Below are positions 1,516 to 7,265 of a stretch of 7,830 nucleotides of DNA, piece by piece. Every line of letters begins with the position of its first letter. The stretch's first letter is position 1. Made by a program: the position numbers and the translations under genes. Source of the stretch: Candidatus Fermentibacterales bacterium (lineage in GTDB: Bacteria > Fermentibacterota > Fermentibacteria > Fermentibacterales > JAFGKQ01); assembly GCA_016928495.1 (NCBI GenBank), contig JAFGKQ010000245.1, positions 1 to 7,830 on the forward strand, read 5' to 3'. The notes under the pieces are model-generated. The model was not told the DNA's origin and searched no databases. It saw only the letters and a program-made list of their open reading frames with translations.

Positions 1516-2426
1516 CTGGCTCGACTCTCCCTTCGCCCTGCTATCGCCTCGAGGCTCGCCCCACTGGCGAAGATCCCGCTCCAGCGGGGCTGGCTGACGA
1601 GGTCCGCGATAACGTCACACTTGACCACGAACGAATAGTAGATCCTGTGGGGATCGATCTCCCCGTTGCCGAGGATGAGGCCCTCCAGATTGCCCTGACC
1701 CTTGGACAGGACGAGATCGGCCCCTCGGAGCAGCTCCGCGAAACCCGGCGAGCAGGCGGAAGGCACTACCGTGGGGGCGTCGAGCCCGGTACTCACCAGC
1801 CTGGCGACCCGTCCCAGTCCCGCAGCCTCGGCGTCGGATGATGTGGCATCGTTCAGGACGGGCAGCGGCCTGACCGCGTAGGCAAGCTCACACCCGCCCC
1901 CGGCAAGCTGCTCCAGGAACAGCATGTCCAGTACGGTCTCCCCGGCGTTGTCCCCGAGCACCAGCAGGGAGCCCGCCCCGGAGAGCTGCTCCAGGAACCT
2001 CTCCGTCTCGTCGATGGCGAGAGGACGCGAGAGAGTCTCCATCAGGATCTCCGCCTCGGGAAGCTCCCTTCCCTGCGCGACATCGATGAGGTTGGCCCAG
2101 CAGCATGCCCGCAGGGCAGCCCTTGGCGGGTCGGCGGTCGAGGCGTAGGCGGCTCTGAGCGAGTCCGCCCTCATCATCATCTCCTCCGTAGCCGACTTCT
2201 TCTGCTGCTCGAAGATGTCCAGCCTGCCCAGGCGCTCCCTGAGCCAGGCGTAGACGGGTGCGCCGGCAACCGGGGGCGGGTGATGCCCCAGCCTGGGCAG
2301 GACCATTGCCATCGCCTCCGACAGCAGAGCGCGTGCCGTTTTGCCAGTGGTCCCTGCGGTGCGGATGAAGGAGGCCAGGCCCTCCCTGAAGCACTCGGTG
2401 CACTCAGCGCCCGGTCGCAGCGGCAA
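1458..2426 (-). CDS. DUF89 / ARMT1-like damage-control phosphatase family protein
   Basis: A 322-residue protein of the DUF89 family of metal-dependent phosphatases. Visible motifs are an N-terminal CxxC (C9, C12 in AECTECF, typical of the prokaryotic branch), GDNAGE at 158-163 (metal-binding Asp-Asn), LNDATSSDA at 191-199, and ADLVLSKGQGN at 236-246, which supplies a further metal Asp and the conserved Lys. Family members studied elsewhere hydrolyse damaged or harmful phosphometabolites such as certain sugar phosphates or phosphopantetheine derivatives; the substrate here is unknown. The start is TTG, the first possible start after an in-frame TGA, with GAGGGGG seven bases upstream, and it overlaps the end of pdxT by 23 nt. 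The coupling to pdxST suggests a role near PLP or pentose-phosphate metabolism (inference). The last 19 residues are Ser/Thr-rich and are read in another frame through the start of the FmdB gene, so the tail is probably not conserved. Confidence 0.85.
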   Translation of the reverse strand: MPLRPGAECTECFREGLASFIRTAGTTGKTARALLSEAMAMVLPRLGHHPPPVAGAPVYAWLRERLGRLDIFEQQKKSATEEMMMRADSLRAAYASTADPPRAALRACCWANLIDVAQGRELPEAEILMETLSRPLAIDETERFLEQLSGAGSLLVLGDNAGETVLDMLFLEQLAGGGCELAYAVRPLPVLNDATSSDAEAAGLGRVARLVSTGLDAPTVVPSACSPGFAELLRGADLVLSKGQGNLEGLILGNGEIDPHRIYYSFVVKCDVIADLVSQPRWSGIFASGASLEAIAGRRESRASCPSTSTSASTATGYSSSS

Positions 2427-3105
2427 TTCCCGACCCCCTCAGGAACAGGCGGTGGACCCGGTCGTCCCCCGTCAGCTCGGGATGGAAAGAGGAGAGCCAG
2501 AGGTTGCCCTGGCGAACGAACACGGGACCTTCGTCGAGGCAGCAGAGTATCTCCGGGTCCTCTTCGATCGGCTGGAGCAGCGGGGCCCGGATGAAGACCC
2601 CGGGGAAGGGTCCGTCGACTCCGCGTATGGCTATGCTCTGCGTGAAGCTGTGTGACTGGCGCCCGAAGGCGTTTCTCAGCGCGCGGACGCCCGCAAGACC
2701 GAGGCAGGCCTGATCGAAGTCGTCGTGCTCGGACTCGATCACGCTCCGCGAGAGGAGAACGGCCCCGGCACATGTCCCCCAGACCGGCAGGCCCTCGCGC
2801 GCAAGAGCGATGATGGGCGAATCGAGGCCCCAGCGTCGGACCAGGGCCATGAGCGTGGTACTCTCGCCTCCCGGGATGACCAGTGCGCTTATGCCATCCA
2901 GGTGTGCCGGTGATCTCACCTCGCGCGCGCTCACTCCCGCCTCGAGAAAGGCCTGGACATGCTCGCGGACCCCGCCCTGCAGGGCCAGAACGCCGACCAG
3001 GGGATTCCCGGGCCCGGCAGGTGCCCCGGATGGCGGCGCGGCCCGGTCCGGGACGGCTCTCTCCGCCAGGGGGCTACCAGCCGCGGCGGGCCAGTCTCTC
3101 TCCAT
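2404..3105 (-). CDS. pdxT: Pyridoxal 5'-phosphate synthase, glutaminase subunit PdxT
   Basis: PdxT hydrolyses glutamine and channels ammonia to PdxS for synthesis of pyridoxal 5'-phosphate. It is a class I (triad) glutamine amidotransferase. The motifs are clear: [14 protein letters not shown] (37-50), IPGGESTT (77-84), WGTCAGA with nucleophile C112, RNAFGRQ (144-150), and SSFHPELT with triad residues H208 and E210. The core matches the usual length of about 195 residues. From the ATG at 3105, however, there is a Pro/Ala/Gly-rich extension of roughly 35 residues before the conserved VGVLALQG. No ATG, GTG or TTG lies between, so the start is either this ATG, overlapping pdxS by 32 nt with only a weak ribosome site, or a rare CTG such as the one at 3000. 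The catalytic part is not affected. It is the third gene of the minus-strand run. Confidence 0.93.
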
Positions 3106-3961
3106 CGCCCAGCTCGGAGATCTCGATGCCGTGCATGGCTTCCCCGAGACCCGCGGATACCTCGGCTATGACGCCTGGATCGTCGAATCTGCTGACTGCC
3201 TCGACTATGGCTCTCGCCCTGCGCTCCGGGTCGGAGCTCTTGAAGATCCCGCTACCGACGAACACGCCATCCATGCCGAGCTGCATCATCATCGCCGCGT
3301 CCGCCGGAGTGGCTATTCCCCCCGCCGCGAAGTTGACGACGGGGAGCCTGCCGGACTCATGCACCTGATTGACCAGCTCGAAGGGCGCACCCATCTCCCT
3401 GGCGGCGGTCATGAGCTCCTCCGCGGGCATTGAGTGGATTCGCGCGATCTCGCCGAGCACCGCTCTGGCGTGTCTCACGGCCTCGACCACGTTGCCGGTG
3501 CCGGCTTCGCCCTTGGTGCGTATCATGGCCGCGCCCTCGCCGATCCGCCTGAGGGCTTCCCCCAGGCAGGTGCAGCCGCAGACGAAGGGAACGCCGAACC
3601 TCCACTTGTCTATGTGGAAGGACTCATCGGCGGGCGTGAGGACCTCGGACTCGTCGATGAAGTCTATCTCGAGCGCCTCGAGCACCTGGGCTTCGACGAA
3701 GTGGCCTATCCTGCACTTCGCCATGACCGGTATCGTGACCGCCTTCTGGATGGCCCCGATCACCTCCGGGTCCGACATCCTGGCCACCCCGCCGTGGGCC
3801 CTTATGTCGGCGGGCACTCTCTCGAGGGCCATGACGGCCACCGCGCCGGCCTGTTCCGCGATCCTCGCCTGATCCGGGGTGACGACATCCATGATGACGC
3901 CCCCCTTGAGCATCTGGGCATGGCCCAGCTTGACCTCGTAGGTTCCCTCTTCGCGTTGCAT
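3074..3961 (-). CDS. pdxS: Pyridoxal 5'-phosphate synthase, lyase subunit PdxS
   Basis: PdxS condenses ribose 5-phosphate, glyceraldehyde 3-phosphate and ammonia from PdxT into pyridoxal 5'-phosphate. It is a (beta/alpha)8 barrel that forms a dodecamer in characterised members. At 295 residues it has the normal length. The family signatures are GGVIMDVV with D25, [18 protein letters not shown] (45-62), [14 protein letters not shown] with the ribose-phosphate-binding lysine K82, [10 protein letters not shown] with the second catalytic lysine K150, [20 protein letters not shown] (210-229) and [10 protein letters not shown] (234-242). The ATG at 3961 was chosen because homology begins there, AAGGG lies nine bases upstream, and it forms TGATG with the stop of the preceding gene. 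The same frame is open back to 4060, but those residues look random. The C-terminus lacks the longer tail of some homologues and overlaps pdxT. Confidence 0.97.
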
Positions 3962-4448
3962 CAGAGCAGACCCTTCTGATCCAGGAGGGCGAGCAGCTCT
4001 TGCTCCCGCTCCATCCAGGTGCTGTCCGTCGAGATCAGCCTGTCCTCGAGGACCCGGCACCTCGCGGTGTCCTCGTCTGGAGCGCCGTGGTAGAAGGCCC
4101 TGATCTCCGAGTACAAGATGAGGTATTCCTGCACGCTGTCAACGACCTCCCTCCACGCCAGACTGGTTTCCTGCCCCCATCCCTGGAACCAGAGGGAGTA
4201 GGCCGAGATCCGGTCCAGGGCGAGCTCCGCCCTGAGCCAGGCGAGATCGAGCAGCCAGAGGCGGAGAGGTGTGTCCTCCCGTGCCGGGCACTCCGGGACC
4301 GCCTCGCAGTAGAATCGAAGAGGCCGGAGACCTCCCTGTCCAGTTGCAGCAGGAGCTCTATCGGCCCCTCGTAGTCATGCGCGGGGTCGGCCTCCGGAGC
4401 CTGGGGACTGGCGGAGAAGCTCCATGCCGCGAGGACCAGGAGAGCCAT
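3961..4448 (-). pseudogene. Small putative secreted protein, broken by a one-base frameshift
   Basis: Not recognised. Two frames join into one gene of about 162 residues. Frame one starts at ATG 4448, with GGAGGAG five bases upstream, and gives MALLVLAAWSFSASPQAPEA, a plausible short signal peptide, then an acidic segment to about residue 44 (LDREVSGLF, ending at 4317). The frame then loses coding character, and a second frame takes over at 4317 (RFYCEAVPEC onward) for 118 residues. That part is rich in Trp, Leu, Tyr and Glu, looks helical, and ends DQKGLL. Third-codon-position GC is high in frame one before about 4317 and high in frame two after it. Frame two has no usable start of its own, but its TGA overlaps the pdxS ATG as TGATG, which is typical of a real coupled gene. 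The defect equals one missing base near 4315-4320. It could be a sequencing error, a young pseudogene or a phase-variable gene. No slippery heptamer is evident. Confidence 0.72.
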
Positions 4449-4453
4449 CCGGG

Positions 4454-4460
4454 CTCCTCC
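4454..4460 (-). promoter_or_regulatory. Ribosome-binding site for the secreted-protein gene
   Basis: GGAGGAG on the minus strand, five bases before the ATG at 4448. It is strong and well spaced, and decides for this start over the in-frame ATG at 4475, which would sit almost at the predicted transcription start. Confidence 0.75.
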
Positions 4461-4481
4461 GGGGTTCGCAGACATGGCGCA

Positions 4482-4511
4482 AGTATACGAAACGTTGCCG
4501 GCATGCGGCAA
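4482..4511 (-). promoter_or_regulatory. Candidate sigma-70-type promoter for the minus-strand pdx run
   Basis: On the minus strand, TTGCCG (4511-4506) is followed after 18 bases by TATACT (4487-4482). Both boxes are close to the housekeeping consensus, and the area is the only AT-richer patch nearby. Transcription would begin near 4475, giving a leader of about 27 nt that carries the GGAGGAG site. It would drive the secreted gene, pdxS, pdxT, DUF89 and fmdB together. Predicted by eye only. Confidence 0.5.
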
Positions 4512-4558: not shown

Positions 4559-5986
4559 ATGGTGCAGAATCGCTCCTCAGGCTCTCCCGCGTGTCCGCCT
4601 GCCCGGGAGGTCATGGCCAGGCTGGAGGCGGCCCGGTCCGGGGCGGGAGCCCTGCGGATCTGCCGCGGGCTGACCGAATCCGGCCACGAGGCCAGGCTCG
4701 TGGGTGGCGGCGTGAGGGACGCTCTCCTGGGTCTTCCCCTCAGCGATCTCGATATCAGCACAAGCGCACGTCCGGAAGAGGTCATGGCCTGCTTCGACGA
4801 TGCCAGGTACGTCGGCAGGGCCTTCGGCGTGGTCCTGGTCAGGCTGGATGGCATCAGCTACGAGGTCAGCAGCTACAGGACCGAGTCAGACTACGCCGAT
4901 CTGCGCCACCCATCCGTCTGCCTGTTCCCGGTCACTCTGGAGGAGGATGCCGCAAGGCGCGACTTCACCGTGAACGCGATCTACTTCGCACCGGATTCGG
5001 CGGAGCTCATCGATCCCTGGGGTGGGCTCGGCGATCTCGCAAGAGGCGTCCTGAGATGCGTCGGGGATGCTTCGAAGCGCTTCGGAGAGGACGCTCTGAG
5101 GATAATGAGGGCCCCCAGGCTGGCCGCCAGGCTCGGCTTCGAGCTCGAGGAGGGTACCCGGAGCGCCGCTGCATCGATGTCCGGCCTGCTGACCAGGCTC
5201 GCCGGCGAGAGGGTATCGGAGGAGCTCGACAAGGCGCTATCGGATGCCTCCAGGGGCGACTACCTGAGGCTCATCGAACGCCTGGGCATATTGGTCGTGC
5301 TGCTGCCCGAGGTCGCCCGGCTGAGAGGGATCACCCAGGACCCCATGTGGCATCCCGAGGGAGACGCGCTCGAGCACACGGTCATCGCCGTCGAGGAGCT
5401 GAATCCCCTCGCTGTCCCCGACACCGTCTGGTGCGTGCTTCTGCACGACATCGGGAAGCACTCGGCCAGCCGGAGGGACGAGTCCGGCAGGATCGTCAGC
5501 CCGGGCCACGCTGCCGAGGGTGCCGGGATGGTGCCCGGGATAGCCGCCCGGCTCTGCTGGCCCTCGGCTCGAAGGCAGAGGGTCGTCTGGGTTGTCGAGA
5601 ACCACATGAAGCTCATGGACGCCCGGAAGATGAGGCCTTCGACGCTCAGGAGGCTGCTCGGGCACAGGTGGGGAAGGGACCTCGCCGAGGTGTTCAGGGC
5701 GAGCCGTGCGGCATCCCGGCGCCTGACCGGGGCGGACTCCGTGGATCCCGAGGTTGCCTTCTGCTTCGAGAGGATCGCAGAATATGATGCTGAGGGAGGT
5801 CGTGCAGCCCTGACGGTCAGCGGCAGCGACCTTATCGATCTGGGCGTCCCTCAGGGCCCGGAGATAGGGAGACTGCTCGATCTTCTGAGGGAGGCCGTCG
5901 AGAACGGCGAGCTGGATGCGGACAGGTCCGCGCTGCTCCGGCACGTCCGCCAGATCCTCGGGAAGGACGGGACAGACCCGCGATGA
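4559..5986 (+). CDS. cca: CCA tRNA nucleotidyltransferase / poly(A) polymerase family, with HD domain
   Basis: A class II CCA-adding-type enzyme that builds or repairs the CCA 3' end of tRNAs from CTP and ATP in the cytoplasm. Of 475 residues, the head domain shows VGGGVRD (48-54), SDLDIS with the catalytic carboxylates D63 and D65, ARRDFTVNA (132-140) and EDALRIMRAPRLAARLGFE (177-195). A C-terminal HD region follows: HPEGDALEHT (H273), LLHDIGK (H296, D297), then H317 and H349. The protein ends with the common GVPQGPEIGRLL segment (429-440). The sequence alone cannot separate a full CCA enzyme from an A-adding or poly(A) polymerase relative. ATG 4559 lacks a clear ribosome site. ATG 4613 is the alternative; it has GGGAGG, but only two bases away, and would still leave about 30 residues before VGGGVRD. 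The frame is open back to 4424 but lacks family resemblance there. The stop overlaps the next gene as ATGA. Confidence 0.92.
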   Translation: MVQNRSSGSPACPPAREVMARLEAARSGAGALRICRGLTESGHEARLVGGGVRDALLGLPLSDLDISTSARPEEVMACFDDARYVGRAFGVVLVRLDGISYEVSSYRTESDYADLRHPSVCLFPVTLEEDAARRDFTVNAIYFAPDSAELIDPWGGLGDLARGVLRCVGDASKRFGEDALRIMRAPRLAARLGFELEEGTRSAAASMSGLLTRLAGERVSEELDKALSDASRGDYLRLIERLGILVVLLPEVARLRGITQDPMWHPEGDALEHTVIAVEELNPLAVPDTVWCVLLHDIGKHSASRRDESGRIVSPGHAAEGAGMVPGIAARLCWPSARRQRVVWVVENHMKLMDARKMRPSTLRRLLGHRWGRDLAEVFRASRAASRRLTGADSVDPEVAFCFERIAEYDAEGGRAALTVSGSDLIDLGVPQGPEIGRLLDLLREAVENGELDADRSALLRHVRQILGKDGTDPR

Positions 5987-6384
5987 TCCACCTGCTCGTT
6001 CTGCTGCATCTCGCGATGACTGCTTCCGAGGCCCCGGACGCCCCCGCCTTCCTGGCAGACCTCGAGGGCGCCGGCATCCCTGCCTCCGAGGTCTCGCTGA
6101 CTGCCGCCGCCGTCTGCGTGACTATGGACGGCAGCCTCTCCAGAGGCGACAGCTTGCTGAAGCACTACGGCGGTGTCTACTACGCCCTGCTGGACAGCAT
6201 AGGCGCCGGATGGCCGCTGCTGGGCCTCCGGATAAGCATAGAGGATGTCGTGCTGGTCCTGGACGGGGCCTGCGTCGCGCAGGCCATCGAGCAGATTGTC
6301 CGGGGCGTGCCTGACGAGCAGGTCGGCCTGTGGGTCCTGGAGCACACTCTTCTGGAGGATCTTCCGGGGCCCGCTCAGCCCTGA
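5983..6384 (+). CDS. Small hypothetical protein, possibly exported
   Basis: Not recognised. A 133-residue protein whose ATG overlaps the cca stop by four bases (ATGA), so it is probably co-translated with cca. The N-terminus MIHLLVLLHLAMTASEA is hydrophobic over the first 13 or so residues, which could be a weak signal peptide, although the usual leading Lys/Arg are missing. The rest is acidic and Leu/Val/Ala-rich, with one or two moderately hydrophobic stretches (GWPLLGLRISIEDVVLVLDG, about 76-95) that are too charged for a membrane span. It contains no Cys pair or catalytic motif that I can name. Codon use, with high third-position GC, matches its neighbours, which supports a real gene. Its last ten bases overlap the end of the convergent glycosyltransferase gene. 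Coupling with cca does not by itself reveal a function. Confidence 0.7.
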   Translation: MIHLLVLLHLAMTASEAPDAPAFLADLEGAGIPASEVSLTAAAVCVTMDGSLSRGDSLLKHYGGVYYALLDSIGAGWPLLGLRISIEDVVLVLDGACVAQAIEQIVRGVPDEQVGLWVLEHTLLEDLPGPAQP

Positions 6385-7250: not shown

Positions 7251-7265
7251 CTGGCGCTTTCAGGC

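Follow-up and report, generated by a model that had tools for sequence, protein, structure and literature searches.

Directly upstream of the PLP synthase gene pdxS, the window analysed here (7,830 nucleotides, one whole contig of a draft genome of 337 contigs that is 81% complete) carries a single gene that has lost its reading frame between positions 4317 and 4305. Clear homologues occur in 22 other genomes of the same order, each as a single continuous open reading frame (ORF) that spans the place of the frame loss. We are highly confident that this gene, hereafter the pdxS-head gene, is broken in this draft genome alone and that it represents the conserved first cistron of the pdxS-pdxT cluster, encoding a probably exported protein. 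The feature that a preliminary description had flagged from the raw sequence exists, as a broken gene, and following it up recovered an unnamed family of putatively exported proteins whose genes accompany those of PLP synthase in an uncultured phylum. There is nothing unusual about the break, and the unnamed order-wide family before pdxS is of modest interest. Annotation would largely miss the pdxS-head protein in this genome.

Organization of the pdxS-pdxT locus

The pdxS-head gene, pdxS and pdxT are all located on the minus strand. Both PLP synthase genes are intact. The pdxS gene (3074..3961) encodes 295 aa, matches NCBIfam model NF003215 (E-value 3e-153) and shares ~80% identity with its closest relatives, and pdxT (2404..3003), the start codon of which is not settled, matches NCBIfam model TIGR03800 (E-value 6e-57). 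The pdxS-head gene is composed of an N-terminal part (4314..4475) with a signal-peptide-like start, ...LLLQLDREVSGLFD, that aligns with the N-terminus of the intact relatives, a frame-loss site (4305..4317), and a C-terminal part of 117 residues in a second frame, which together with its TGA stop codon (3963-3961) covers 3961..4314. This TGA and the ATG of pdxS share their A (TGATG, 3963-3959), so that the gene heads the pdxS-pdxT cluster with an overlapping stop, as had been proposed. An SD-like AAGGG precedes pdxS at 3975-3971 on the same strand.

Some neighbouring features deserve mention in their own right. The pdxS gene of one relative (genome G008; L077, 3192-4358) aligns as two pieces with ~120 unmatched residues inside a single open frame, an arrangement that resembles an insertion. 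On the plus strand of the window, positions 5983-6384 encode a small conserved protein that has no Pfam match. The gene of this protein adjoins the pdxS-head gene divergently in relatives, and a CCA tRNA nucleotidyltransferase gene (4559-5986) separates the two in the window. On the minus strand (1461-1580), the ORF of an ARMT1-like (DUF89) damage-control phosphatase runs ~57 nt into an FmdB-type zinc-ribbon gene; the ARMT1-like ORF of two relatives ends just short of it. A change of GC phase is seen near 1580, and the arrangement could reflect a second frame change, the loss of a stop codon or an overlap of natural origin.

Two reading frames of one gene

On the minus strand, the N-frame is open from the ATG at 4475 to a stop codon at 4037-4035, and the second frame is open from ~4374 to the TGA. 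An alternative in-frame ATG at 4448 has a GGAGGAG ribosome site ahead of it, and the joined protein has the 162 residues of the preliminary description when counted from there; the conserved start of the relatives corresponds in alignment to ATG 4475 and brings the joined length to ~171. The C-frame had been described as lacking a start. This is correct for the whole 117 residues, but a GTG is present at 4134 and yields a 57-residue ORF.

Both halves were said to be real coding sequence, and base composition and homology bear this out. The G+C content by codon position is 0.74/0.49/0.81 in the N-half, with the third position highest, and 0.65/0.43/0.88 for the C-half in its own frame, similar to the 0.67/0.45/0.85 of pdxS. 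The phase of this signal switches in the 90-nt interval that begins at 4325, which places the change of third-position G+C at the break, as had been noted. Against a profile of the 22 intact relatives, the C-half scores 113.8 bits at profile positions 43-155 and the N-half 13.9 bits at positions 23-43. Because these stretches adjoin, the halves are neighbouring parts of one protein. The core motif of the family is found on either side of the break, with DREVSGLFD preceding it in the first frame and YCEAVPECP following it in the second. As in the relatives, the window copy is located directly upstream of pdxS, here with overlapping stop and start codons; unlike theirs, its ORF is discontinuous.

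At the break, agreement with the family ends in the N-frame at the invariant Asp (4316-4314) and resumes in the C-frame at Tyr 4311-4309 and Glu 4305-4303. The disturbed stretch may exceed one change, as the otherwise invariant Leu between Tyr and Glu reads Cys in the window. What is certain is no more than a net shift of one base modulo three.

Intact homologues across the order

A search of 99 genomes with the 117 residues of the C-half returned the 22 clear homologues, at 35-48% identity. Their genes are located directly before pdxS in all 22 genomes, and at the junction the stop codon and the start of pdxS overlap or come close to contact, with ATGA as the commonest form. None of these genes is split, and the break is seen in this draft genome only. 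Comparison with related genomes had been set beforehand as the test of a single broken gene, and it favours one gene: the relatives carry intact single ORFs, none of them has two genes at this place, and the second frame is conserved.

A profile search of 192 genomes detected the family in 36, the window's own genome included. Beyond the 22 clear relatives, this search added 12 divergent copies from one genus (E-values 3e-8 to 1e-11), together with a weak match from outside the order (E-value 0.001). Among the 22 clear and 12 divergent single-ORF copies, each one whose position was checked lies before pdxS. Eight genomes missed by the first search each have a short, exported-looking ORF directly upstream of pdxS, and one of these, the divergent copy of G011, reaches 20 bits with a widened profile, above 500 shuffles. 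All named records with the gene belong to Candidatus Fermentibacteria, Aegiribacteria or Hyd24-12. Intact homologues from Candidatus Fermentibacteria and Aegiribacteria (L059-L077) have the position directly before pdxS and the signal-peptide-like start in common with the window, as well as the core motif DRE-x-SGLLDAYLEAVPECP...DTPxRxWxLDxAWxRA, but their frame is unbroken whereas that of the window is lost between 4317 and 4305.

Promoter placement and probable coupling to pdxS

A promoter-like site (4482..4511, minus strand) is found ahead of the pdxS-head gene, with the -10 box TATACT at 4487-4482, a weak -35 box TTGCCG at 4511-4506 and 6 nt from the -10 box to ATG 4475. In 20 of the 22 relatives, the ATG follows the end of a TATATT-like -10 box at a distance of 5-9 nt, and in 14 of those 20 a TTGA-type -35 box is found 17 nt upstream of the -10 box; the window retains this placement with its TATACT. 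Such conserved positioning of the -10 box suggests a leaderless mRNA for the pdxS-head gene: in the intact relatives, transcription would begin at or beside the ATG, which would make the transcript leaderless or nearly leaderless. This pattern is claimed for the pdxS-head gene only, because a general leaderless-promoter signal showed no enrichment in the sampled contigs.

Stop and start codons overlap or nearly touch in all 22 relatives, which suggests coupling: in these genomes, the ribosome that completes the pdxS-head gene would stop on a codon overlapping or nearly touching the start of pdxS, and pdxS is probably translationally coupled to it. The window copy lost its frame between 4317 and 4305, in what we read as a recent event. 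If the shift is genuine, the protein would be reduced to ~54 native residues followed by an out-of-frame tail, and ribosomes would stop at the N-frame stop codon (4035..4037, minus strand). The preliminary description erred in placing this codon past the start of pdxS, for it lies 73 nt before that start on the mRNA. In that event pdxS would be left to its own weak ribosome site, the AAGGG at 3975-3971.

Origin of the break

Judged by the sequence of the C-half, the break is either recent or an artefact. Although this half would go untranslated once the frame is lost, its third-position G+C stays high (0.88), and it is without sign of decay because its 39% identity to a reference member falls inside the 33-42% range of intact members from other distant lineages. 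To the sampled part of this genome (~390 kb), the ORFs of relatives were aligned as an assembly check, and no convincing second frameshift was found in ~147 kb of aligned coding sequence. This screen is weak for small genes and overlooked the present break, the N-half being too short; it bounds gross error-proneness only, since it is blind to breaks in small genes. The candidates at L152 6072, at L199 1621 and at both places in L201 were rejected as neighbouring, overlapping or antisense ORFs upon direct inspection, and the one at position 7261 of the window was judged likewise from gene orientation only.

We give an even chance to a local sequencing or assembly error, with the gene intact in the organism. 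The gene is unbroken in every clear relative, the C-half has retained coding-type third-position G+C and conserved residues, and the source draft is fragmented. The change of Leu to Cys beside the break may mean that more than one base is disturbed, which would fit a local error of the consensus. Against an error, the site is without a homopolymer run, and the result of the assembly check indicates that the assembly is not grossly error-prone.

The same clean appearance of the sampled contigs speaks for a genuine recent indel in the strain that would have turned the gene into a young pseudogene, a reading that we hold as a serious possibility at somewhat under an even chance. Loss of the pdxS-head gene could be tolerated, given that pdxS has its own SD-like AAGGG. 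Retention of the gene before pdxS across the order argues against such a loss, as does the finding that none of the 22 clear copies shows another break.

Programmed ribosomal frameshifting that yields the full protein from two frames is very improbable. Both frames have coding character and a -1 shift would join them, but all clear relatives have one open frame and none is split, inspection of 4305-4317 revealed no X XXY YYZ slippery heptamer, and the N-frame stop is not near the site. Two separate genes before pdxS can practically be dismissed: the GTG at 4134 could start the short ORF in the C-frame, but the homologous part of the relatives starts ~60 residues further upstream and runs on without interruption from the N-terminus.

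The encoded protein

As a single gene that is broken in this draft genome alone, the pdxS-head gene would in its intact form encode a small exported protein of ~150-170 residues, composed of a signal peptide and a predicted four-helix bundle. Export is inferred from the exported-protein-like N-terminus, which is shared with the relatives and agrees with the signal-peptide-like start noted earlier. The AlphaFold model (mean pLDDT 85.6) displays a signal-peptide-like helix and four further helices, at residues 3-12, 28-51, 65-88, 91-120 and 126-155. In searches of Pfam, NCBIfam and PDB sequences, the family gave sub-threshold matches only, and no paper dealing with the gene was found in the literature by title or abstract. 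The earlier proposal of a new exported partner of the operon stands to the extent that the family is unnamed in these databases and conserved before pdxS; a function of the family in B6 metabolism does not follow.

The closest solved folds are periplasmic four-helix ligand-binding domains, with Z-scores of 12-13.4 over 121-130 residues at 2.4-3.1 Å, values that can be reached by chance as the noise level of helical bundles is near Z 13. Foldseek returned nothing at E ≤ 0.001 (best E 0.09). No function is assigned from the structure comparison, because these four-helix sensor-domain matches are at bundle-noise level. For a chemoreceptor-type four-helix ligand-binding domain, no curated Pfam or NCBIfam model matched at or above its cut-off. 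The model shows no transmembrane helix or signalling domain after the bundle, as the protein ends 5 residues past the last helix.

As to the role of the product, our best guess is a periplasmic helper or binding protein that is co-expressed with PLP synthase. A more specific proposal, which we regard as unlikely, is that the four-helix bundle would bind a B6 vitamer in the periplasm or would otherwise act as an envelope partner of PLP synthase, while the leaderless, overlapping gene would set the translation of pdxS. Binding of a B6 vitamer by the family, if it occurs, would connect the envelope with cofactor synthesis; if the partner reading is true, export or sensing would be tied to vitamin B6 synthesis across the phylum.

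Comparison with known systems

The predicted architecture may resemble the periplasmic domains of Tar (aspartate receptor), Tsr (serine receptor) and PcaY_PP and the N-domain of LytS, which are four-helix bundles of ~130 residues. Sequence identity between these domains and the pdxS-head protein is 5-12%, and unlike proteins of this type, the pdxS-head protein is without a C-terminal membrane or signalling domain. With regard to gene order, the nearest likeness is Bacillus subtilis, where the order is dacA-pdxS-pdxT and DacA is a D-Ala-D-Ala carboxypeptidase. The pdxS-head family, unlike DacA, is composed of small helical proteins without a carboxypeptidase match, but in B. subtilis as in the window, a gene for an exported or putatively exported protein precedes pdxS and pdxT.
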